The notes under the pieces: model-generated
The model's input: the letters and a program-made list of their open reading frames with translations, nothing else
Told to the model about the DNA's origin: nothing
Database searches by the model: none
In this document: piece after piece, positions 3,471 through 32,361 of the stretch
Position numbering within the stretch: position 1 is the first letter of the stretch
How the letters are laid out: the number at the start of each line of letters is the position of its first letter
Made by a program: the position numbers and the translations under genes
Assembly (NCBI RefSeq): GCF_024178385.1
Contig: NZ_JAMZMM010000015.1
Span: forward strand, 1 to 36,501
Reading direction: 5' to 3'
Origin: Limnofasciculus baicalensis BBK-W-15
Lineage (GTDB): Bacteria; Cyanobacteriota; Cyanobacteriia; Cyanobacteriales; Coleofasciculaceae
Length of the DNA: 36,501 nucleotides

Positions 3471-4064
3471 ATGATAGTAGCAACTAAGAAATTAACCTTT
3501 GATGAATATTTACACTACTCAGACGGAAGCGATACGCAATATGAATTAGTAAATGGAGAATTAATACCCATGAGTCTTGGTACTGGTAAACATGGAGGAA
3601 TTATCCGATTTTTGGAGCGAAGATTTGAAGCAGTAATTGAGGAATTAGGACATCCTTGGATTCCCTTAGCTACCCTAGTTGGTGTCCGTTCGCCTCGCGG
3701 GGGAAGATGGGACACATCTCGCATTCCAGACGTGACTGTTTTGCCAATTGAACAGTGGGAATCTCTTGCTAATCGAGAAGCGGTAATTGAACTTAATGAA
3801 GCGCCTCCAATCTTGGTAGTGGAAGTAGTTAGCGAGTCAACCAAAACTACAGACTATCGTAGCAAACGTTCTGAATATGCTGTACTTAATATTCAGGAAT
3901 ATTGGATTGTCGATCCCTTAGCAGAGGTGGTAATAGTATGCAGTTTAGCTGAGGGTTTTTACGATGCTGTGGAATTTCGAGGGAAAAATCCTATCGTCTC
4001 TAATGTATTCCCAGAGTTGAACTTGACAGCTAATCAAGTTTTGATGATTATTCTTAGTTGTTAG
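3471..4064 (+). CDS. Uma2 family (DUF820) putative endonuclease
   Basis: This 197-residue protein belongs to the Uma2/DUF820 family, a PD-(D/E)XK-fold family greatly expanded in cyanobacteria with no settled function. Family signatures are Y-E-L-V-N-G-E near the N-terminus, I-P-D-V-T-V-L in the middle, V-V-E-V-V-S-E-S, the K-R-S-E-Y helix and E-Y-W-I-V-D-P. These cover the catalytic Asp and Glu positions of the fold. The ATG is preceded by AGGAG at a suitable distance. The stop codon is the first TAG of a heptamer array (4054-4123), so the C-terminus is set by the repeat. It is one of six members in the window and is only distantly similar to the others. Confidence 0.88.
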   Translation: MIVATKKLTFDEYLHYSDGSDTQYELVNGELIPMSLGTGKHGGIIRFLERRFEAVIEELGHPWIPLATLVGVRSPRGGRWDTSRIPDVTVLPIEQWESLANREAVIELNEAPPILVVEVVSESTKTTDYRSKRSEYAVLNIQEYWIVDPLAEVVIVCSLAEGFYDAVEFRGKNPIVSNVFPELNLTANQVLMIILSC

Positions 4065-7577: not shown

Positions 7578-8144
7578 TTATTTAAACAGAATTTCTACAG
7601 GACAACTAAACTCAGGTAAAAGAGGACTAGTTAGATTATCTTCCCTAAATAACGTAGCGGCTAATTTTAAAATACCATTTTCCCGCCGATAAACTTCTAC
7701 TTTTATCTGTTGGCGATTAAAAATCCAGTATTCTCGCACTCCTTGAATTGAGTAAAGTTTCAGTTTCACTTCCCTATCCCGCCTTTCCTGCTCCGCACCT
7801 GGAGATAGTACTTCCACGACTAATTCTGGCGCACCTGTTAAATGCCCAGCTTCATCCAAAATCTCGGCTAAACGTTCATTACTCGCCCAAACTACATCAG
7901 GAATTACATTATCAGCATCTGTAAAAATAATACCAGGACTAGTAGCTGCATCTCCTAACCCCGTGTTTCTTGACCAAATTTTCAATTCTGTGCAAACATT
8001 ATCAGCAACATTTTGATGTTTCCAGTCAGGCGCTCTTGTCACAAATAAGTCTCCATTAATAATCTCATAATGTTTGCCATCATTGGATAATAACTCCAAG
8101 TCAGCAGTTGTCCAGCGTATTTTATCTATTACTGTGGGGGACAT
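7578..8144 (-). CDS. Uma2 family (DUF820) protein, tandem copy 1
   Basis: 188 residues with the Uma2 core: Y-E-I-I-N-G-D-L near the N-terminus, V-I-P-D-V-V-W-A in the middle, E-L-V-V-E-V-L-S-P, the R-D-R-E-V-K helix and V-R-E-Y-W-I-F-N. It belongs to the PD-(D/E)XK-like group; its role is unknown. It is almost identical to the next gene (8268-8834). About 565 bp are shared with only four visible base differences in the coding part, giving a Ser/Pro difference near residue 20 and a changed C-terminus (V-E-I-L-F-K against V-E-L-L-F-R). The duplicated block begins at the shared TTCTACAGG (7593) and runs some 10-15 bp past the start codon. This points to a recent duplication or ongoing gene conversion. 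Confidence 0.88.
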   Translation of the reverse strand: MSPTVIDKIRWTTADLELLSNDGKHYEIINGDLFVTRAPDWKHQNVADNVCTELKIWSRNTGLGDAATSPGIIFTDADNVIPDVVWASNERLAEILDEAGHLTGAPELVVEVLSPGAEQERRDREVKLKLYSIQGVREYWIFNRQQIKVEVYRRENGILKLAATLFREDNLTSPLLPEFSCPVEILFK

Positions 8145-8267: not shown

Positions 8268-8834
8268 CTATCTAAATAAAAGTTCTACAGGACAACTAAA
8301 CTCAGGTAAAAGAGGACTAGTTAGATTATCTTCTCTAAATAACGTAGCGGCTAATTTTAAAATACCATTTTCCCGCCGATAAACTTCTACTTTTATCTGT
8401 TGGCGATTAAAAATCCAGTATTCTCGCACTCCTTGAATTGAGTAAAGTTTCAGTTTCACTTCCCTATCCCGCCTTTCCTGCTCCGCACCTGGAGATAGTA
8501 CTTCCACGACTAATTCTGGCGCACCTGTTAAATGCCCAGCTTCATCCAAAATCTCGGCTAAACGTTCATTACTCGCCCAAACTACATCAGGAATTACATT
8601 ATCAGCATCTGTAAAAATAATACCAGGACTAGTAGCTGCATCTCCTAACCCCGTGTTTCTTGACCAAATTTTCAATTCTGTGCAAACATTATCAGCAACA
8701 TTTTGATGTTTCCAGTCAGGCGCTCTTGTCACAAATAAGTCTCCATTAATAATCTCATAATGTTTGCCATCATTGGGTAATAACTCCAAATCGGCAGTTG
8801 TCCAGCGTATTTTATCTATTACTGTGGGGGACAT
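8268..8834 (-). CDS. Uma2 family (DUF820) protein, tandem copy 2
   Basis: 188 residues, the near-identical twin of the gene at 7578-8144 and in the same orientation, 123 bp upstream of it. The same Uma2 motifs are intact, so both copies look able to fold and neither is a visible pseudogene. The intergenic text differs between the copies outside the duplicated block. An AACGCAAAGAGCG(C/G)AAAG word lies on both outer sides of the pair (7559-7576 and 8935-8953), which may mark the recombination that produced the duplication; that is inference. Either copy could be the original. Confidence 0.88.
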   Translation of the reverse strand: MSPTVIDKIRWTTADLELLPNDGKHYEIINGDLFVTRAPDWKHQNVADNVCTELKIWSRNTGLGDAATSPGIIFTDADNVIPDVVWASNERLAEILDEAGHLTGAPELVVEVLSPGAEQERRDREVKLKLYSIQGVREYWIFNRQQIKVEVYRRENGILKLAATLFREDNLTSPLLPEFSCPVELLFR

Positions 8835-9042: not shown

Positions 9043-9894
9043 TCAAATTAGATCCGGATCGATCCCTTGCGATCGCAAATATGCCGCTAATCGCTCTTTC
9101 TGTTGCTGTTCTCGATCCGCACGTTCTCGTTCTTGTTCGGCACGTTCTCGTTCTTGCTGGGCACGTTCTCGTTCCTGCTGGGCACGTTCTCGTTCTTGTT
9201 CGGCACGTTCTCGTTCCTGCTGGGCAATAGCCTCTACTTCTTGAACTTTCTCTACTGCCCAAGGTAGCATTGTCCCAGCTTCGTCCCACCAGCGCAACCA
9301 GTATCCTGTCCTTTCTTCTTTCTTGCCCCGCCAGGTTCCCAAAAATAACATCATTTCTGGAATCCAATGCCGTCCGTTTTCATCGGGCATTTGCAATTGA
9401 TAGGTGCTATTTTCCAGGACGTAAAACTCTAATAATCCACCCACAGGCTCAAAGATTATGTAATATGGGACTTGCAAAATTCGTTCGTAGAAGTGCCATT
9501 TTCCGGGTGGATAGGTTTGCTTGGAGGAATATTCTTCGCCTTCTGTTGCTGAGAGAAACTCCATCACAATTGTTGGGATATCTCCTTCTAAATTAGGTGT
9601 ATAGCTGCGACGTTCTTCTGTACCTTCGAGGGGCAATACAGCAGGCACGTACAACCAATCGGGCGCTTTCACCACCATCTGCTCGTCCACCGTAGCGCAC
9701 AAGCCAAAATTGGACACTACTAGCATTTCAGGACGAATCCAATTTGCTAGTTCCAGGCTTTCGCGCAATGCACCAGCCAGCAAAGGTTGAGCAGTATTTT
9801 CCACGGGATCGTCAGGGAGTTGATAATCGGCAGGCAAGGGTTCCCAGCGAATCTGAGATTGAATTCGAGGGGGTTTAACTGGAGTCACAGTCAT
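9043..9894 (-). CDS. Uma2 family protein with C-terminal coiled coil
   Basis: 283 residues in two parts. Residues 1-200 hold a Uma2-like domain (E-G-D-I-P-T-I-V-M-E-F-L-S as the strand with acidic residues, then Y-Y-I-I-F-E-P). Residues about 215-270 form a highly charged coiled coil of repeated R-E-R-A-(E/Q)-Q-E heptads ending in L-R-S-Q-G-I-D-P-D-L. The heptads come from five 21-bp direct repeats in the DNA (9119-9223). The last residues resemble those of the Uma2 gene at 35,443 (L-R-L-L-G-I-N-P-D-D-L), which marks a distinct Uma2 subtype with a coiled-coil tail. The ATG at 9892-9894 starts the first recognisable segment. Function is unknown; the tail suggests oligomerisation. Confidence 0.85.
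   Translation of the reverse strand: MTVTPVKPPRIQSQIRWEPLPADYQLPDDPVENTAQPLLAGALRESLELANWIRPEMLVVSNFGLCATVDEQMVVKAPDWLYVPAVLPLEGTEERRSYTPNLEGDIPTIVMEFLSATEGEEYSSKQTYPPGKWHFYERILQVPYYIIFEPVGGLLEFYVLENSTYQLQMPDENGRHWIPEMMLFLGTWRGKKEERTGYWLRWWDEAGTMLPWAVEKVQEVEAIAQQERERAEQERERAQQERERAQQERERAEQERERADREQQQKERLAAYLRSQGIDPDLI
9119..9223. repeat. Five 21-bp in-frame direct repeats
   Basis: Five consecutive units begin with GCACGTTCTCGTTC at 9119, 9140, 9161, 9182 and 9203. They lie in the coding strand of the Uma2 gene at 9043-9894 and each encodes one seven-residue heptad. Loss or gain of a unit would leave the frame intact and change the coil length. Confidence 0.93.
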
Positions 9895-13513: not shown

Positions 13514-14128
13514 ATGACCATAACACCAATCAAAACTAAGCAACTGCTCTCCTTTGAGCAATTTGTCAAGCAACTTCCAGATGAAGAAGGGCGCTACGAA
13601 CTAGTAAATGGAGAAATTGTGAGAATATTACCAATCAGACTGCATGAAACCCTCGCTGAATTTCTGTCAGATACTTTCAAAGACGAGGTAAAACGACTCA
13701 AGCTTAACTATTGGGTATCTGGCAGAATTGTGATAAGGACTTTCACTGCAAACGGTAAAGAACAAGGCAGACATCCTGATATCAGTGTAGTAGATAAAAC
13801 TCTTTGGGAATCACAACCTTTCGCCTACTCAGCGCTAACTGAACCCCCACAATTAGTCGTAGAAATAGTATCAACAAATTGGGAAGATGACTATATCGAC
13901 AAGCTGGATGAATATCAGCGGTTAGGCATTCCTGAATACTGGATTGTAGATTATTTAGCTTTGGGAAGTAGAAATTATTTGGGCAATCCCAAAGTGCCAA
14001 CAGTATTTGTTTACCTCATCGATGAAAATGGGGTTTATCAAATGACAGCTTACCAAGGAAATAACCGAATTATATCGCGCACTTTCCCAGAATTAGCGCT
14101 GACAGCAGAGCAAGTGTTAGATGTATAA
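13514..14128 (+). CDS. Uma2 family (DUF820) putative endonuclease
   Basis: 204 residues with the complete Uma2 pattern: F-E-Q-F-V near the N-terminus, Y-E-L-V-N-G-E, H-P-D-I-S-V-V, L-V-V-E-I-V-S-T-N, D-K-L-D-E-Y and E-Y-W-I-V-D-Y. These place the family's Asp/Glu residues as in the PD-(D/E)XK fold. The ATG follows GAAAGAAAACC. It is divergent from the other five copies. It lies between a decayed toxin-antitoxin locus and yjbQ and appears to be transcribed alone. Confidence 0.88.
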   Translation: MTITPIKTKQLLSFEQFVKQLPDEEGRYELVNGEIVRILPIRLHETLAEFLSDTFKDEVKRLKLNYWVSGRIVIRTFTANGKEQGRHPDISVVDKTLWESQPFAYSALTEPPQLVVEIVSTNWEDDYIDKLDEYQRLGIPEYWIVDYLALGSRNYLGNPKVPTVFVYLIDENGVYQMTAYQGNNRIISRTFPELALTAEQVLDV

Positions 14129-17959: not shown

Positions 17960-18658
17960 ATGACAACCAACCTCTCCAGCAATGCTGAAATTCTTTGTAA
18001 AGAAGTTCGCTTGCTCCTTTGTTTGTGGGATTTGGGCGGATTTGAAGTGAAAAAGGGTGACTTGAATCCGCGACTGAAACGGAAGAAGGAGACGGCTGGA
18101 GATTATCAGAATGCTTACACGAGTTTAGCAGAAGTAGGCGCGATCGCAATCTCGAAAAATAAGGTTTCTCTCCTGAAACCCAAGGGAATCGAGGTGTTGA
18201 GTGAGGGATTGAGAAGCGCGGATTTCCAATTTAATAGCCCGATTGGTGCGAAAATGGCGAATACACTATTGAAGTGGATTCGTGAGGAAGATACATCTGT
18301 GATGGGTGCGGTTGTTGATAGTGGGAAACTTGAAAAAAGTGGGGATGGCGCTTCAGCGCCTACTACTAACGGGGGTATTACATTGTATGACGAATTTAAG
18401 TCGGTGGCGTTAGACGTGTATGACAAGTTGAATCGGGATTATAACTTGGATAATCTCGTGCCAATTTATCGGATTCGGCGGGAAATAGGCGATCGAATTT
18501 CTCGTTCTCAGTTTAATGAATGGTTGTTGGAAATGCAAGCTGATGATATTTTACAGTTAATGGGGGGAGAAATGCCAGATATTACTTCTGATAAACGCGA
18601 AGATTCAATAACTATCCCTGGTGCTGGGTTGCGCTACTATGCCAAACGACTGAATTAA
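17960..18658 (+). CDS. Winged-helix-like protein, first gene of the nuclease cassette
   Basis: 232 residues, no named family recognised. Residues about 10-78 look like a winged helix (helix-rich start, then A-I-A-I-S-K-N-K-V-S-L-L-K-P-K-G-I-E-V-L as a beta-wing pattern). Residues about 110-135 are a Gly/Ser/Thr linker. Residues about 143-232 form a second winged-helix-like unit with L-V-P-I-Y-R-I-R-R-E-I-G and S-R-S-Q-F-N-E-W-L. Two such units suggest DNA or protein binding. It is followed after 50 bp by the ATPase in the same direction, so cotranscription is likely. It may be the specificity or regulatory subunit of the cassette; that is inference. Confidence 0.7.
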   Translation: MTTNLSSNAEILCKEVRLLLCLWDLGGFEVKKGDLNPRLKRKKETAGDYQNAYTSLAEVGAIAISKNKVSLLKPKGIEVLSEGLRSADFQFNSPIGAKMANTLLKWIREEDTSVMGAVVDSGKLEKSGDGASAPTTNGGITLYDEFKSVALDVYDKLNRDYNLDNLVPIYRIRREIGDRISRSQFNEWLLEMQADDILQLMGGEMPDITSDKREDSITIPGAGLRYYAKRLN

Positions 18659-18708
18659 TGAGATTACTGCAAATCCCTTTATAGTTCCTCACCTCACACT
18701 GAATCACG

Positions 18709-20673
18709 ATGGAAAATCCTCCTGTTTCTCCGATAGAAGTCCTCAACGCAGCCATCCAAAGTCATAATCCATTTATCAACGCGGGAATTGTCAAAGAACA
18801 AGATGTCTGGGGGAACAAATTTACCGATGTTCCTACTCTAAATTCCCACGCTTCTGATGCAGTTTTTCAAGCAATTAAGCAAGTGCGGACAAGTCAATCT
18901 AGCCAAGACAAGGTGACTTCAATCGCCATAACTGCACAACAGGGCGTAGGTAAAACCCACCTCCTCAGTCGCATTCGCCATCGGCTTGAACGCGAAGGTG
19001 GTGCTTTATTTGTTTATGCAGGTGTCAATAACTATACAGACTTAAATCTAGTTAAGTACCAATTCCAGCAAACATTGGCAGATAGTCTCAGCCACACTGC
19101 TAGTCAAGAAGTCATGCAGTGGCAGGAAGTGGCAGCAGCAATTGCAAACGAAGGCTTCAAAGCCATCAATCCTAATGCTCCAAACCTTTCTCCCCAAGAG
19201 TTGACCCACCGATTTGATAAAGTATCTGCAAGTTGGGTGGCGAAGAACAAGAGTTTAATGAACGTACTCACAAAGCAAGTTCTCAAAACAAAACAAAATG
19301 CAGATCCCTATATTATTAGGGCTATTTTGTGGACGCTTTCAGAAACTCAGTCATCATTTGCAATTAAATGGTTGTCAGGCGATGAACTAGCTCAATCTAA
19401 TGCTGAGGTACTGGGATTACCTAATCCTAGTAAAACTAGTCAAGATAGAGAAGCTGAAGCTCTAAAAAATGTTCAGCAAACATTAAATTTAGTGAGTTAT
19501 TATAACCCTGTAGTTATTTGTTTTGATGAAATAGATGTCAAAAATAACTCTACTGATGACGGCTTGCCAACAGAGCTGGTGATTGCTGATTTAGTCAAGC
19601 GTCTCCATGATACCCTTGAAAACTCTGAACTCAGTAAAGGGGTTGTTATTCTCACAGTTATGCTGCCTGATACATGGACACAAAAGGTAAATTTAATGCC
19701 TGGTGGTACACCAGATAGAGTATCTAAATATACACAACGAAAGCCGATTGACTTAAAATATATTAGTGGCAATTCAATGGTAGAGTTAGTCACACTTTGG
19801 CTGAAAGATTTTTATGAATCCAGGAATTTATTTCCACCTAATTCATGTTACCCATTTGAAGAAAGCGAACTGAAAAAATTTGGCAAAGGTAAACCAACTG
19901 TAAGGGAAGCATTACAATGGTGTGCAGAAAATTTTAAAGTTTATCAACCGCAACTTCCAACTAAACCACTTGATCGGTTTGAACTTGCATTAAAAAAAGA
20001 AATTGAGGCAGACATCGGAGATTATCTGGAGGATAACTCGCTAATCGCTGACTCTCTGCGTTTTGGATTTCAGACCTTGATAGGTAAGACTTTGGAAGGA
20101 GTAACGATTGAAGAAATTACTGAAGTTAAGCCTAAAGCAGAAAATAAGGGTTGGATCAACTTCAAGGTTATTGGTACAGAGGGGGGAAAAGTTGTCAAGA
20201 TTGGAGTAGCTGTGATTCAGTCTTCTCAATTCTCATTAGTGGCTGGATTAAAGCGCTTAAAGGAATATGAAATATTTGACCTGACTCGTGGATGTTTAGT
20301 ACGTTCCCAATCCAAGATAGAGCAGACCAAAAAGAATTCAGAAGCCTACAAATTACTTGACCAACTTATCTTAGAAAAGGGTGGAGAACATGTGCCTCTT
20401 ATAGAAGAGCAGATCAGACCACTAATCGCTGTTCATTCTGTTTATCAGAAGCGTGGAAATTATGATTTAACTGAGGAGCAAGTTTTTGATTTCATCTCTC
20501 AGCAGCAGCTAACTTTTGAGAATCCTTTATTGGCAGACATTTTGAGTGACCCTTCCGGTCGAATGCCCGCTGTCGATGAGCGGGACAGCATGGAACTCCT
20601 AGAAGACTTCCTAAATCCTTCCAATATAAACGAAACAGATGACTCAGACGATCTTGGTGAGTTGTTTAATTAA
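18709..20673 (+). CDS. AAA+-like ATPase of the nuclease cassette
   Basis: 654 residues. The ATPase domain spans about 20-420: Walker A A-Q-Q-G-V-G-K-T with K82, and Walker B V-V-I-C-F-D-E-I-D at 267-275 with D272-E273. The region after Walker B (P-T-V-R-E-A-L-Q-W-C) resembles the lid part of AAA+/ORC-type ATPases. Residues about 430-600 form a mixed alpha/beta domain containing I-G-V-A-V-I-Q where a nuclease strand would carry E-x-K; it could be a degenerate nuclease fold, which is speculative. The C-terminus (about 615-654) is acidic and probably flexible. The stop is 2 bp before the next ATG, so this gene and the nuclease are almost surely one operon. An energy-dependent role on DNA is likely; the substrate is unknown. 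Confidence 0.82.
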   Translation: MENPPVSPIEVLNAAIQSHNPFINAGIVKEQDVWGNKFTDVPTLNSHASDAVFQAIKQVRTSQSSQDKVTSIAITAQQGVGKTHLLSRIRHRLEREGGALFVYAGVNNYTDLNLVKYQFQQTLADSLSHTASQEVMQWQEVAAAIANEGFKAINPNAPNLSPQELTHRFDKVSASWVAKNKSLMNVLTKQVLKTKQNADPYIIRAILWTLSETQSSFAIKWLSGDELAQSNAEVLGLPNPSKTSQDREAEALKNVQQTLNLVSYYNPVVICFDEIDVKNNSTDDGLPTELVIADLVKRLHDTLENSELSKGVVILTVMLPDTWTQKVNLMPGGTPDRVSKYTQRKPIDLKYISGNSMVELVTLWLKDFYESRNLFPPNSCYPFEESELKKFGKGKPTVREALQWCAENFKVYQPQLPTKPLDRFELALKKEIEADIGDYLEDNSLIADSLRFGFQTLIGKTLEGVTIEEITEVKPKAENKGWINFKVIGTEGGKVVKIGVAVIQSSQFSLVAGLKRLKEYEIFDLTRGCLVRSQSKIEQTKKNSEAYKLLDQLILEKGGEHVPLIEEQIRPLIAVHSVYQKRGNYDLTEEQVFDFISQQQLTFENPLLADILSDPSGRMPAVDERDSMELLEDFLNPSNINETDDSDDLGELFN

Positions 20674-20675
20674 GT

Positions 20676-22118
20676 ATGAACGAATCAGTTTTGCTTCAAA
20701 CAGCCTTATGTCTACCAGCACCTGACATTGAAGCGTTAATCCAAGGACGAATGATTGCAGCAATGCCTCGAAAATTGATTAATTCGGGGCAGCAATTTGC
20801 TCTCTATCCAGATAATCCCTCAATTAAATTACTACCCCTTGATCAATACTACCACTCAAGTTTTTTGTCCATTGCCCAAAGGGTTTTTGCTAACTTAAAT
20901 TTGGAAAGAGTTTTGATTAAAGCTTGGGCTAGGTGCGAATTGTGCCAAATCCTGAATGATTCTGAAGCATTAGAAGTTCTATCACAGTTAACAGTGTGGA
21001 CGAAAGACTCATTACAACAAACGCTCCTACAAAAACCTTATATTTTTCTGGCTTACCTACGTGTCTATCTGCTACCTCAGCCCCTGGAAGTTCCAGTCCA
21101 TACTCAAATTCGTCACATTGTTCCTTTACCACAACAACTTAAAGTTTCTGAAGCAACCCCAGTATTAAGCGATCGCGCCTTCTCCCAACGCCGCCACCAA
21201 CTCGAACATCGCATACCACCCGAACATCCAGAATTAGAAGAATTACAAGGTAGAATCTCTATTCTCTCCACCAATAACTCAACCGCTGCTAAATTAGATC
21301 TCTATATCCAAACCTGCTTAGGTTGGAAAACTCCCCAACCCAATAAATTACCACCAGAATACAATTGGATTTATACTATTAAAGAGTTAGGCACTGCTAC
21401 CACAGGCGGTAACTATGAAAAAGGCACAGCATTTGAACAAATCGTTCACAAAAGTCTCACCTTTCTCGGTTTTGGTGTTGATCCTAATGCTAAAGGTGGT
21501 GCAGGTGGGATGGATTTATACTGCACCACACCCTATCCCCTAGTAGGCGAATGTAAAGCAGGTAAAAGTATCCCCGATGCCACAGTTGAACAGTTATCCA
21601 GAATCGGCAAACGACATCTCGGCAAATATGACTATGAACAAACTGTTAAATTAATTATCGGTCCTGGGGAACCAACTACATATTTACAAAAATCCGCTCA
21701 AGTATCTACAATTAGTATCATTCACCCTATGACACTGCAAAAATTAGTCGAACTCCACGCGAAACATCCCGGTTCAGTCAATTTAATGGAACTGAAACAG
21801 TATCTCACAGCCGGACAAATTGACGACAAGATAGATGAATATGTAGATAAAGTTGAGGAAACGATAAAATTGCGATCGCAAATTGTTACAGCAGTAAAAC
21901 AACTTGGCGAAGGGGAACCTGGAAGCAAACACCAAACCATGGTAATTCGCACCCACTATAATGCTGTATTCGCCAAGGAAACAAACGCTAAACTAGATGA
22001 TATATTAGTTCACGACTTACTAGTAGAACTTTCCTCACCCTTAACAGGTTATTTAGGGCGAGATAAAGGAAATGATTGGAAAAGCGATCGCTTTTATTTC
22101 CTCCGTGACTTATCCTAA
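20676..22118 (+). CDS. DUF1802-like/PD-(D/E)XK nuclease fusion
   Basis: 480 residues in three parts. Residues about 8-150 look like a DUF1802-type domain (P-A-P-D-I-E-A-L-I-Q-G, Q-F-A-L-Y-P, I-K-A-W-A-R-C with C87-x-x-C90, L-R-V-Y-L-L-P-Q-P); the family match is from memory. Residues about 245-375 are a restriction-like nuclease: E254 in the first helix, D280 in G-G-M-D-L-Y, and E292-C-K294 in V-G-E-C-K-A-G, the D...ExK motif of Mrr-like enzymes. Residues about 385-480 are helical and end in L-S-S-P-L-T-G-Y-L-G and R-F-Y-F-L-R-D-L. The start is 2 bp after the ATPase stop. The motif is complete, so it should be catalytically competent. A defence or DNA-processing role is inference from domains and context. 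Confidence 0.83.
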   Translation: MNESVLLQTALCLPAPDIEALIQGRMIAAMPRKLINSGQQFALYPDNPSIKLLPLDQYYHSSFLSIAQRVFANLNLERVLIKAWARCELCQILNDSEALEVLSQLTVWTKDSLQQTLLQKPYIFLAYLRVYLLPQPLEVPVHTQIRHIVPLPQQLKVSEATPVLSDRAFSQRRHQLEHRIPPEHPELEELQGRISILSTNNSTAAKLDLYIQTCLGWKTPQPNKLPPEYNWIYTIKELGTATTGGNYEKGTAFEQIVHKSLTFLGFGVDPNAKGGAGGMDLYCTTPYPLVGECKAGKSIPDATVEQLSRIGKRHLGKYDYEQTVKLIIGPGEPTTYLQKSAQVSTISIIHPMTLQKLVELHAKHPGSVNLMELKQYLTAGQIDDKIDEYVDKVEETIKLRSQIVTAVKQLGEGEPGSKHQTMVIRTHYNAVFAKETNAKLDDILVHDLLVELSSPLTGYLGRDKGNDWKSDRFYFLRDLS

Positions 22119-22132
22119 CTTGCGACTTTTAA

Positions 22133-22199
22133 GTTTGTAGTAGGCACTTTAGTGCCTAAAAATGCTATATGTATAAGCACTAAAGTCCTTACTACAAAC
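22133..22199. repeat. Long imperfect inverted repeat between the two paralogues
   Basis: A 23-base arm (22133-22155) pairs with 22177-22199 at 21 of 23 positions around a 21-base loop. The arms contain GTTTGTAGTA and CTTTAGTGC. It could form a strong RNA hairpin within the 241-bp gap and reduce expression of the downstream paralogue, or it may simply be a small mobile repeat. No T run follows. Confidence 0.88.
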
Positions 22200-22359
22200 A
22201 TCTAGTACAAGTCCAATAGCACCAGAGCCTATCTAACCTCTAGCCCCGAATCGCCCCTAACCCCAATAATATTAAATGATAATAGAGGTTTTCTAAATCC
22301 GCCAAAGCCGCAGGTTAAAATCAGTACCTATCCAAGAAAACAAGTAAGGCTGACTGATT

Positions 22360-23805
22360 ATGAGTACATTAGTTGTTATTAATACGGCATTTCCCTTCCC
22401 AGCCCCTGATATTGAAGCATTACTCCAAGGGCACAGCATCGTGGCAATGCCTCAGATTTTCATGAATCCGGGGAGGCAATTTGCTCTTTATCCGACAGAT
22501 ACCTCAATTAACTCCTTGCAAACAGAACAATATTATCGCTCTAATTTTCTTCCTACTGCTCGAAATACTCTCTCTGAAATTGAGGGTGATACAGTTTTAA
22601 TTAAAGCATGGGCGAGGTGCGAACATTGCCAAGTTATCGATCAACCAGATTATCTGAAAATGTTATCTCAGCTAACAGTATGGACTAAAGAAGCCTTATT
22701 GAAAACTCTCGCTCAACGCGGGCATATTTTTCTTACTTACCTACGGGTTTATCGACTACCTCAGCCATTAGAAATACCCGTGCATCCTAATCCCCGTTTC
22801 ATGCCTCTCCCAGAAACCCTTACTATTACAGAAGCAACACCTGTATTTGGCAATTTATTCTTTAAACAACGCTGTCTCCAAATGCAGCAGCGACAGTCAT
22901 CGCCCTATCCAGAATTGAAAGCATTGCAAAGTGCGATCGCATATCTCTCAGATCGTAACCTGGCAGCCAAGGAAATACAACGGGAAATCGCAAATTTTCT
23001 CATTGGTGTTAGCGCCCGCCCCCTTAAATCCATGGATTCCGATTTAATCTGGATTGAGAGAATCGCCAAAATTGCTAATTCTCACGATAGTAATGAGTTA
23101 AAAATCTTAGTAGAAAAAAGCTTCCACAAGCTAGGCTTTACTAATTCTCAAACTAACAAAGGAGGGAAAACAGAAACACCTGAAGGAATTAACCTTTATT
23201 TCGATGCGCCCTATCCACTAGTTGTCACCTCTCCAGTAATGCCCGATGAAACAGGAGAGACTTCAATCCTGGAAGAGGTAATTGAGGGCGTAAAAAAAAT
23301 TATTGGTGTATCGGATAACAATTGTGTCAAACTAATAGTAGCAGCAGGTGAACTAACACCTGATGAGATTCTAGAAGCCAAGCTCTATCAAATGAATGTA
23401 ATTCATCCAGAAACCCTGCAACGTCTCGTAGAAATACAAGCATATCACAAAGGCTCCATCGATTTGATAAAGCTGCAAAATTGCTGGCAAAATGTCTGGG
23501 GTTCAGCAGATGAAACTATTCAGCAATATTTAGCAGACATTCGCCAAATACTGGAATTACGATCGCTAATCGTGCAACTAGTCAAACATCACCTGCACAA
23601 TGCCGGATTAAAAGATACTGCCGTTGATGCCTTACATAGAGTATATGTAACATCTCAGTTTCCCGAATCATTAACTATCGAAGAAATTCATGAAATTTTG
23701 ATTGAATTGTCTTCCCCTTTAACAGGTTACTTAGGACGAATTAAAGGGAAAGATTGGCAAAGCGATCGTTTTTATTTCCTGAGAGATTTGCCACCTATGA
23801 GTTAG
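22360..23805 (+). CDS. Nuclease-dead paralogue of the DUF1802-like/nuclease fusion
   Basis: 481 residues, clearly homologous end to end to the preceding protein: the same opening (P-A-P-D-I-E-A-L), I-K-A-W-A-R-C-E-x-C, R-V-Y-R-L-P-Q-P-L-E-I-P and the same ending (L-S-S-P-L-T-G-Y-L-G-R, R-F-Y-F-L-R-D-L). In the nuclease region, however, D280 is replaced by Asn (G-I-N-L-Y) and E292-C-K294 by T-S-P (P-L-V-V-T-S-P), and the first-helix Glu aligns with Lys. The fold may remain but catalysis should not. The frame is fully open, and the N- and C-terminal domains are conserved, so it appears selected and not a pseudogene. It may act as a structural or regulatory partner of the active copy; that is inference. 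Confidence 0.82.
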   Translation: MSTLVVINTAFPFPAPDIEALLQGHSIVAMPQIFMNPGRQFALYPTDTSINSLQTEQYYRSNFLPTARNTLSEIEGDTVLIKAWARCEHCQVIDQPDYLKMLSQLTVWTKEALLKTLAQRGHIFLTYLRVYRLPQPLEIPVHPNPRFMPLPETLTITEATPVFGNLFFKQRCLQMQQRQSSPYPELKALQSAIAYLSDRNLAAKEIQREIANFLIGVSARPLKSMDSDLIWIERIAKIANSHDSNELKILVEKSFHKLGFTNSQTNKGGKTETPEGINLYFDAPYPLVVTSPVMPDETGETSILEEVIEGVKKIIGVSDNNCVKLIVAAGELTPDEILEAKLYQMNVIHPETLQRLVEIQAYHKGSIDLIKLQNCWQNVWGSADETIQQYLADIRQILELRSLIVQLVKHHLHNAGLKDTAVDALHRVYVTSQFPESLTIEEIHEILIELSSPLTGYLGRIKGKDWQSDRFYFLRDLPPMS

Positions 23806-30876: not shown

Positions 30877-32361
30877 ATGAATCTGAAAAAAATGCCTGTC
30901 ACAATGACCAAAGGCGTAGTCCAAAATGCCATGGCTTCCGGAGAATACGATACAGGAATTGAAGCCAAAATACAACTATTGCAAATAGCTATAGCACCGA
31001 CAAAATTAACTACAGTTGAAGAATTAGTCCTCCGCTACGTTTTAGAGGGAGAATCTTACACAGAAATTGCCTTAAAACTAGGTTATAACTACGATTACAT
31101 CAAATCAATCGGCTCTAAGTTATGGCAATTGCTCTCCAAATCCTTGGGAGAACCTATCACCAAACGTAATCTTAATTCTGTAATCAAGCAAAAATTAGCA
31201 TCTGTCAAAATAGATAAGACTCCGCCAAAAAGTCAACTAAATCTACCTCCAAAAATACAAGACTGGGAGGAATCAATTGATACATCTTTTTGCTTCGGAC
31301 GTATTGAAGAAATCTCAATCCTCAAACAATGGATTCGGCAAGATAAATGCCGTCTAGTCTCAATTTTAGGGATGGGAGGGATGGGAAAAACTGCCCTCAC
31401 AGCACGGACAGTTGAACACCTACAAGGAGACTTTGACTATGTGATTTGGCGATCCGTCCGTCATCTACCCTCACTAGATGAACTTCTAACAGACATATTA
31501 CAAGTTTTCTTTGCAGCACGAGAAAATGACCTCGCAGACGATACCAATAGTCGGATCAATTGCTTGCTCGCTTATCTGAAAAATTACCGCTGTTTGCTAA
31601 TAATAGATAACTACGAATCATTTATTCTTAGCAGTAAAAACATAGAACATAAATTCACCTCTCCCCCTGCCCCTTCCCTGGAAGGGAAGGGAAGTCAAGT
31701 CCCCCCCTTCCCTTCCAGGGAAGAGGGGTTAGGGGGATTAAGTTTATCAATCGGTCAATACCTTCCAGATTATGAAGAATACAGTCAACTCCTCCGCCGA
31801 ATTGGAGAAGAGCGCCATCAAAGTTGTTTGCTGCTCACAAGTCGAGAAAAACCGACAAGATTAGCCGCAAAAGAAGGAGAAAAATTACCCATTCGCTCCT
31901 TAAACCTCAAAGGATTAGGTGTCCCTGAAGCCCAATCTATTTTCCAAAGCATCGGACTTTCTCTATCAGAATCCGCCGGAAAACAAATAGTTCACCGTTA
32001 CAGCGGTAATCCCCTGATATTAAAAACCGCTGCTACTGTGATTCGAGATTTATTCGAGCGAGATGTTAAGGAATTTTTAGCCCAAGATACGTTAATATTT
32101 AGTGAAATTGCTAGTTTATTAAACCAACAATTAGATCGATTATCAAGCTTAGAATGGCAAGTGATGGACAGACTAATCGTTTATCGAGAAGGAGTATCCT
32201 TAGAGCAATTACAAAACGATTTACATCACTCCGTCAGTAAGTCACAACTAATTGAAGCCCTCAAAGCGCTAAAATGGCGATCCCTCCTGGAAACAGCCAT
32301 GTCTCAATATAAGCTGCCTCATTTGGTTTCAAAGCATTTAGCCAAACATTCAGCTAGGTGA
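30877..32361 (+). CDS. NB-ARC STAND ATPase with VMAP-type N-terminus, no WD40 repeats
   Basis: 494 residues. Residues about 25-115 look like the helix-turn-helix domain found at the N-terminus of VMAP-type conflict proteins (S-Y-T-E-I-A-L-K-L-G-Y, Y-I-K). Residues 140-490 form the NB-ARC NTPase switch: P-loop G-M-G-G-M-G-K-T (165-172), Walker B L-L-I-I-D-N (240-245), T-S-R-E-K-P and G-N-P-L, ending in a winged helix. Related cyanobacterial proteins usually continue into WD40 or TPR repeats that sense a ligand; here the frame stops at a TGA after S-A-R, so the sensor part is missing. Residues about 257-291 are a Pro/Gly-rich insertion encoded by a palindromic repeat. It is probably a truncated or regulatory form of a programmed-response ATPase. 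Confidence 0.82.
   Translation: MNLKKMPVTMTKGVVQNAMASGEYDTGIEAKIQLLQIAIAPTKLTTVEELVLRYVLEGESYTEIALKLGYNYDYIKSIGSKLWQLLSKSLGEPITKRNLNSVIKQKLASVKIDKTPPKSQLNLPPKIQDWEESIDTSFCFGRIEEISILKQWIRQDKCRLVSILGMGGMGKTALTARTVEHLQGDFDYVIWRSVRHLPSLDELLTDILQVFFAARENDLADDTNSRINCLLAYLKNYRCLLIIDNYESFILSSKNIEHKFTSPPAPSLEGKGSQVPPFPSREEGLGGLSLSIGQYLPDYEEYSQLLRRIGEERHQSCLLLTSREKPTRLAAKEGEKLPIRSLNLKGLGVPEAQSIFQSIGLSLSESAGKQIVHRYSGNPLILKTAATVIRDLFERDVKEFLAQDTLIFSEIASLLNQQLDRLSSLEWQVMDRLIVYREGVSLEQLQNDLHHSVSKSQLIEALKALKWRSLLETAMSQYKLPHLVSKHLAKHSAR
31670..31728. repeat. Palindromic intergenic-type repeat inside a coding region
   Basis: CCCCTTCCCTGGAAGGG (from 31670) is followed to 31691 and reappears as its complement at 31705-31728 with one extra base. 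The surrounding text (31655-31742) encodes P-A-P-S-L-E-G-K and P-S-R-E-E-G-L-G-G in frame. Relatives of the GGAAGGAGAG palindrome occur between genes near 17,530. Confidence 0.88.

Follow-up and report, generated by a model that had tools for sequence, protein, structure and literature searches.

The window analyzed here is a stretch of 36,501 nucleotides from Limnofasciculus baicalensis BBK-W-15 (contig NZ_JAMZMM010000015.1). Between positions 17960 and 23805 it carries four open reading frames, all on the + strand and all where the original prediction had placed them, which encode proteins of 232 aa (WH), 654 aa (ATP), 480 aa (NUC), and 481 aa (NUCd). The features considered in the text are the following:

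17960-18658, + strand: WH, winged-helix protein of 232 aa (profile matches), opens the cassette and is the first gene in 37/40 and 75/80 loci
18709-20673, + strand: ATP, AAA+ ATPase of the Orc1/Cdc6/TnsC/BrxC type, 654 aa, with conserved K82 and D273-E274
20035-20448, + strand: C-terminal domain of ATP, residues 443-580, whose elements are predicted to follow the order alpha-beta-beta-beta-alpha-beta, possibly like an inactive PD-(D/E)XK fold
20676-22118, + strand: NUC, nuclease bearing an active site, 480 aa
20679-21158, + strand: DUF1802 domain of NUC (residues 2-161), ASCH/PUA-like fold in the model, predicted modified-base reader
21342-21833, + strand: FokI-like PD-(D/E)XK domain of NUC (residues 223-386; model match), with D280, E292, and K294
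21864-22115, + strand: C-terminal winged helix of NUC (residues 397-480), of the Cdc6/Orc kind (Z 10.7)
22360-23805, + strand: NUCd, full-length paralogue of NUC with a dead catalytic site, 481 aa
23191-23235, + strand: dead catalytic site of NUCd, in which N278, T290, and P292 replace D, E, and K
18600-22350 (edges approximate), no strand: segment exchanged with respect to the congener locus L203, from sliding DNA identity and gene identities

The genes are separated by 50 bp (WH and ATP), 2 bp (ATP and NUC, as predicted), and 241 bp (NUC and NUCd). Elsewhere the window contains five putative nuclease genes of the Uma2 family (3471-4064, 7578-8144, 8268-8834, 9043-9894, and 13514-14128), a group II intron reverse transcriptase/maturase (534-2105, - strand), and a gene for a STAND-type ATPase with NB-ARC/NACHT (30877-32361, + strand).

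Family searches are only partly informative. The DUF1802 domain announced for both nuclease genes is found by Pfam in NUC (E 2.4e-33) and in NUCd (E 3.6e-31), together with weak matches to Mrr_cat in NUC and to AAA_16/KAP in ATP. The Pfam search of WH found no family, PADLOC and NCBIfam assign no name to any of the four proteins, and a PDB sequence search with NUC gave no relative. NUC and NUCd are the only two NUC-type genes of the genome. A solo DUF1802 protein of about 200 aa, likely a relative of the reader domain without the nuclease, is encoded elsewhere in the same genome (G000, contig C250:6342-6884); such solo proteins are widespread in cyanobacteria and occur in Deinobacterium chartae too.

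The predicted structure of NUC (mean pLDDT 91.6) comprises three parts. Residues 2-161 resemble ASCH/PUA-like structures with Z values near 9, which are moderate (6kir, Z 9.8, rmsd 3.6, 140 aligned residues; 5y7d, Z 9.1; 2dp9, Z 9.0), and Foldseek pairs this region with ZmASCH at a probability of 0.89-1.00. Judging from the model, the DUF1802 domain is probably an ASCH/PUA-like reader of modified bases. ASCH domains bind RNA as well, so that the NUC reader could sense RNA. Residues 223-386 are closest to the nuclease domains of FokI and Nt.BspD6I (Z 14.8 and 14.7), the structure matches being 2fok (Z 14.8), 6qnz (Z 14.7), and 2p14 (Z 12.5), and residues 397-480 match the winged helix of Cdc6/Orc proteins (Z 10.7). 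The nuclease site is intact in NUC (D280, E292-x-K294), its three residues being kept in 114/117 aligned homologues, and is altered in the paralogue NUCd (N278, T290-x-P292), as had been read from the sequence.

In the model of ATP (mean pLDDT 88.6), residues 10-414 find their top matches in Cdc6/Orc proteins (Z 14.8-14.0), followed by TnsC (13.7) and by the AAA+ domain of BrxC (Z 11.8; Foldseek probability 1.00). The Walker residues are conserved across ATP homologues according to the alignment columns; the Walker A lysine is K82, as proposed, and the Walker B acids are D273-E274, one position beyond the D272-E273 first assigned. Residues 443-580 show, in the predicted secondary structure, a PD-(D/E)XK-like order of elements without an obvious acid-x-lysine motif, and may resemble the inactive REase reported for a related Orc/Cdc6 family in the text of PMC10853773 on these operons. 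A profile match of ATP to a YTH domain (E 0.003 over about 75 residues) was discarded as chance, the region being covered by the AAA+ fold. With regard to WH, described initially as "double winged-helix-like", its winged-helix character is upheld by weak profile matches of the family to MarR, RIO2, and eS10 structures (E 0.004-0.1), which fall in one half of the protein. The identities of its C-terminal half track those of ATP (correlation 0.67-0.68), which suggests that this half contacts the ATPase.

Strong matches to ATP (E < 1e-40) are present in 52/242 cyanobacterial genomes. The order WH-ATP-NUC on one strand is kept in 37/40 extended loci; two of the remaining three run into the end of a contig, and L070 carries the ATPase only. 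A profile scan of the genome contigs with the NUC alignment retrieved 260 relatives, and the best 80 of these 260, examined as loci, are all cyanobacterial and all have ATP upstream of NUC, with WH in 75/80. The gene neighborhood is conserved across cyanobacteria. WH, ATP, and NUC thus belong together as a genuine unit, with the appearance of the ATP-driven DNA-processing or defense complex envisaged in the original prediction. The second nuclease gene is outside this core: in place of the four-gene unit supposed at first, the core consists of three genes, and the dead paralogue is known from five genomes, all belonging to a single family, with a tandem arrangement in three of them. In many Nostocaceae the cassette occupies a constant position between the malate dehydrogenase gene and a 528-aa gene. 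No relatives of the cassette were found in plasmid, phage, and viral-contig collections.

Some loci depart from the simple arrangement. Two full WH-ATP-NUC cassettes lie in tandem in L149, the cassette has beside it another, divergent member of the ATP family in L117/L216, L136/L220, L218, and L222, and a family that resembles Uma2 by eye stands between ATP and NUC in L078, L104, L209, and L217. In L074, L080, L083, L106, L110, L144, and other Nostocaceae loci, the cassette is followed immediately, before the 528-aa gene, by one to several copies of a gene pair on the minus strand that encodes 120 aa (with a retropepsin-like DTGFTG motif) and 105 aa. Fragments of the NUC 3′ end, of 30-98 bp, are repeated beyond NUC, as many as five times, in the oriented loci L045 and L049 and also in L035, L044, L048, L052, L074, L077, L080, L106, L110, L116, L127, and L144. 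They are spaced by small gene pairs, either toxin-antitoxin-like or the 120/105-aa pair, as if small modules had been inserted at the NUC 3′ end and had regenerated that end.

The most informative comparison for the window is with the congener locus L203 (UBA11153, the same record as L101). The upstream gene, NUCd, and SurE are 83%, 85%, and 80% identical in protein sequence between the two, but ATP only 42% and NUC 52%. At the DNA level, identity drops from about 0.8 to mostly 0.5-0.7 within about 18.6-22.3 kb, while the WH and NUCd sequences on either side mostly keep values of 0.68-0.93. The synonymous distance is raised as well (dS 1.92 for ATP and 0.93 for NUC, 0.37-0.70 for the neighbors), which points to replacement and not to loss of constraint. 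A rapid divergence in place of ATP and NUC was rejected for this reason, and also because the edges are sharp and the alleles concerned turn up again in other backgrounds.

The same pattern of diverged ATP and NUC is seen among Nostocaceae loci with shared neighbors. The identities of the flanking genes are mutually correlated (Spearman 0.78-0.93), and those of the WH N-terminus follow them (0.59-0.81), whereas ATP shows no correlation with the flanks (-0.14 to 0.21) and the NUC nuclease domain a weak one (0.03-0.38). Where the flanks are at least 90% identical, 81/89 pairs have at least one domain below 65% identity, these 89 close pairs not being independent events. As a control within genes, ATP segments intercorrelate at 0.70-0.76 and NUC segments at only 0.30-0.46; the allele classes agree with these segment correlations. 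Nuclease domains more than 85% identical occur in 171 pairs, in 125 of which the ATPases are less than 55% identical. In L108 and L113, the DNA is mostly 93-99% identical upstream of the 3′ part of WH and 98-100% downstream of NUC, while the 3′ part of WH together with ATP falls to about 45-65% and the NUC winged helix is exchanged too; the NUC reader and nuclease domains, between the exchanged parts, remain at about 86-98%. L075 differs from L135 in the nuclease domain and in a portion of the winged helix only. The DNA breakpoints are sharp in both pairs, and such breakpoints are also seen between the window and L203. These comparisons show that ATPase and nuclease domains have been swapped in Nostocaceae for distant alleles while the chromosomal site stays. 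The pairs L108/L113 and L075/L135 are natural domain-swap pairs, and the allele data lead to the prediction that specificity, for targets or for escape, resides in the segments that are exchanged.

NUCd shows a different behavior. The residues N278 and T290-x-P292 are shared by its orthologue in L101/L203, and the relatives in L203, L204, L205, and L207 are dead too, by differing residues (ECQ or EFQ in the orphans L205 and L207, KCQ in L204). The five dead paralogues form one clade with a support of 0.99 on the reader, the winged helix, or the full length, but scatter in the tree of the nuclease domain alone. In the window, L203, and L204 the dead paralogue lies between NUC and SurE, beside different ATP and NUC alleles, and between the window and L203 it persisted while ATP and NUC were replaced. 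L205 and L207 have it as an isolated gene, without an adjacent ATP, the cassette being elsewhere in both genomes. Three pairs of dead paralogues give an omega of 0.08-0.10 for the reader and winged helix and of 0.24-0.36 for the nuclease domain; the nuclease/reader ratio is about 3-4, against 0.55-1.3 in active NUC pairs, a small control of 4-6 pairs. According to these values, selection preserves the reader and the winged helix (strong purifying selection) and tolerates change in the cutter (relaxed selection). FokI-like domains pair to cut, so that a heteromeric nuclease of NUC and NUCd is possible. NUCd may sit, without cutting, in the complex or at the sites that NUC uses, or it may join NUC in a heterodimer that nicks, and it offers a natural case of a reader-without-cutter control.

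The gene set and its conservation, the modeled folds, the active sites kept or lost, the selection pattern, and the allele exchange are directly supported. From them we infer DNA loading, modification sensing, cleavage, defense, and the role of NUCd. The explanation that we favor, and regard as fairly probable on the basis of sequences and models, is that WH-ATP-NUC is a restriction-like anti-invader machine under diversifying selection, with NUCd as a reader-only modulator. WH would contact DNA, the Orc1/Cdc6-type AAA+ ATPase would assemble on it and recruit NUC, the ASCH-like domain of NUC would read a base modification or the absence of one, and NUC would cut by its FokI-like domain once two nuclease domains pair. 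NUCd, a reader only, would most likely pair with NUC or compete for its sites, and in this way tune or restrain cleavage. Recombination at the fixed site would swap ATPase, reader, nuclease, and winged-helix segments for distant alleles. Such allele swapping at a fixed site is expected if phages or plasmids favor variants with novel recognition or variants that evade inhibitors. A further version of the proposal, which we put forward tentatively as possible but not as probable, is that of a fixed chromosomal immune locus where a three-gene restriction machine is continually rebuilt from interchangeable domain alleles and where selection maintains the dead reader-only paralogue, either for regulation or because it makes up half of a heterodimer that nicks.

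Several observations fit less well with defense. The absence from plasmids, phages, and viral contigs and the stable synteny in Nostocaceae make the cassette less mobile than most defense systems. No DNA methylase was seen among the window neighbors scanned (part of the open reading frames), which leaves self-protection without an explanation in the restriction reading. PADLOC recognizes none of the window proteins as a known system. The absence from the plasmid, phage, and viral collections, the fixed place beside malate dehydrogenase, and the Orc/Cdc6-like ATPase would suit a housekeeping complex for DNA processing (repair, replication-associated, or chromosome maintenance), stably inherited and with fast-evolving parts. 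Housekeeping genes are seldom exchanged in the manner described above, and the uncoupling of ATP and nuclease identities from the flanking genes, the association of the same nuclease-domain alleles with unrelated ATPases (125/171 pairs), and the presence of strong ATP matches in only 52/242 genomes make this alternative unlikely. The possibility that NUCd is a functionless duplicate in decay would account for the lost catalytic residues, the higher omega of the nuclease domain (0.24-0.36), the restriction to one family, and the orphan copies without ATP in L205 and L207. It seems improbable for a gene with intact open reading frames in five genomes and 85% identity to the L203 orthologue at an omega of 0.158 overall (about 0.09 in the reader and winged helix), kept across the ATP and NUC replacement in the window and L203 and standing beside other alleles in L204.

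A further alternative concerns the substrate: the cassette might be specific to phosphorothioate DNA, and read or spare the mark of DndABCDE-type enzymes encoded elsewhere. The dndC gene (TIGR03183, over the cut-off) coincides with the cassette in 22 genomes where 9.2 are expected (p 1.4e-6), and the genome studied here carries dndC at C206. The association is not significant within the order (p 0.14) and modest outside it (p 0.014), so that it may be explained by shared ancestry or genome size. In addition, no physical linkage of dndC to the cassette was seen, and 30 cassette genomes are without dndC over the cut-off. The co-occurrence is a weak lead only, and specificity for phosphorothioate is very improbable. 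The restriction-like anti-invader machine accounts best for the cassette.

With respect to published systems, the set is not as undescribed as was first thought. One sentence in section 22 of PMC10853773 (NAR 2024) predicts operons of Orc/Cdc6, an ASCH-REase, and a DndG-like triple-wHTH, and assigns this combination to anti-selfish-element systems; the Orc/Cdc6 family there bears an inserted inactive REase. The cassette shares the three components, adjacent and on one strand: an Orc/Cdc6-clade AAA+ (Cdc6/Orc top structure matches, conserved Walker residues), a REase fused to ASCH (the reader and nuclease domain of NUC), and a wHTH protein. As far as that section goes, WH-ATP-NUC is this combination. 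The text of PMC10853773 on these operons does not include the dead-paralogue clade, the fixed locus, or the domain exchange, and calls the Orc/Cdc6 neighborhoods mobile, whereas the cassette site is fixed in Nostocaceae; cyanobacteria are not mentioned in its main text. In the literature searched, no name or experiment for the cassette was found beyond this one-sentence prediction, despite its being common in cyanobacteria, and DUF1802 turns up there in a single paper, an unrelated one. The HerA/FtsK capture systems with Orc/Cdc6 that PMC10853773 also describes fit distant relatives in our sample, in which WH and ATP homologues adjoin fusion proteins of 3′-5′ exonuclease, PD-(D/E)XK, and FtsK domains, the FtsK part matching SspH (E ~1e-65). 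These sister systems have PD-(D/E)XK and FtsK, some with the 3′-5′ exonuclease (L153, L155, L156, L160, L163, L168, and similar loci); L165 has an AbiLi-like ATPase instead.

The original statement that the set lies outside BREX, DISARM, Wadjet, Dnd, and the classic restriction systems is supported. DndFGH/SspFGH contain a HerA/FtsK translocase, of which Pfam, PADLOC, and NCBIfam show none in the cassette, whose nuclease has ASCH and FokI-like domains; FtsK/HerA appears only in the distant sister loci, and this identity was not supported. ATP resembles the AAA+ domain of BrxC in fold, but no PglZ, BrxX/PglX methylase, or protein of BrxC length occurs among the window neighbors scanned. McrBC (type IV) was not supported, the cassette proteins having no McrB/McrC match in the same three resources, nor was classical restriction-modification, as no methylase family was seen in the adjacent genes or in the further neighbors scanned (part of the open reading frames). 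Closer likenesses are found in single proteins. Modification-dependent enzymes of the PUA superfamily (EVE-HNH VcaM4I) fuse a PUA/ASCH-superfamily reader to a nuclease, as in NUC, and FokI/BspD6I supply the closest nuclease domains; enzymes of neither type are known to depend on an Orc/Cdc6 ATPase and a wHTH protein as dedicated partners. The large and small subunit pair of R.BspD6I is a model for NUC with NUCd. Finally, in the HsdS subunit of Type I restriction, recombination shuffles target-recognition domains at a fixed locus. Unlike HsdS, the cassette, with no methylase seen nearby, swaps ATPase, reader, nuclease, and winged-helix segments, and would likewise exchange specificity segments while its locus stays fixed.
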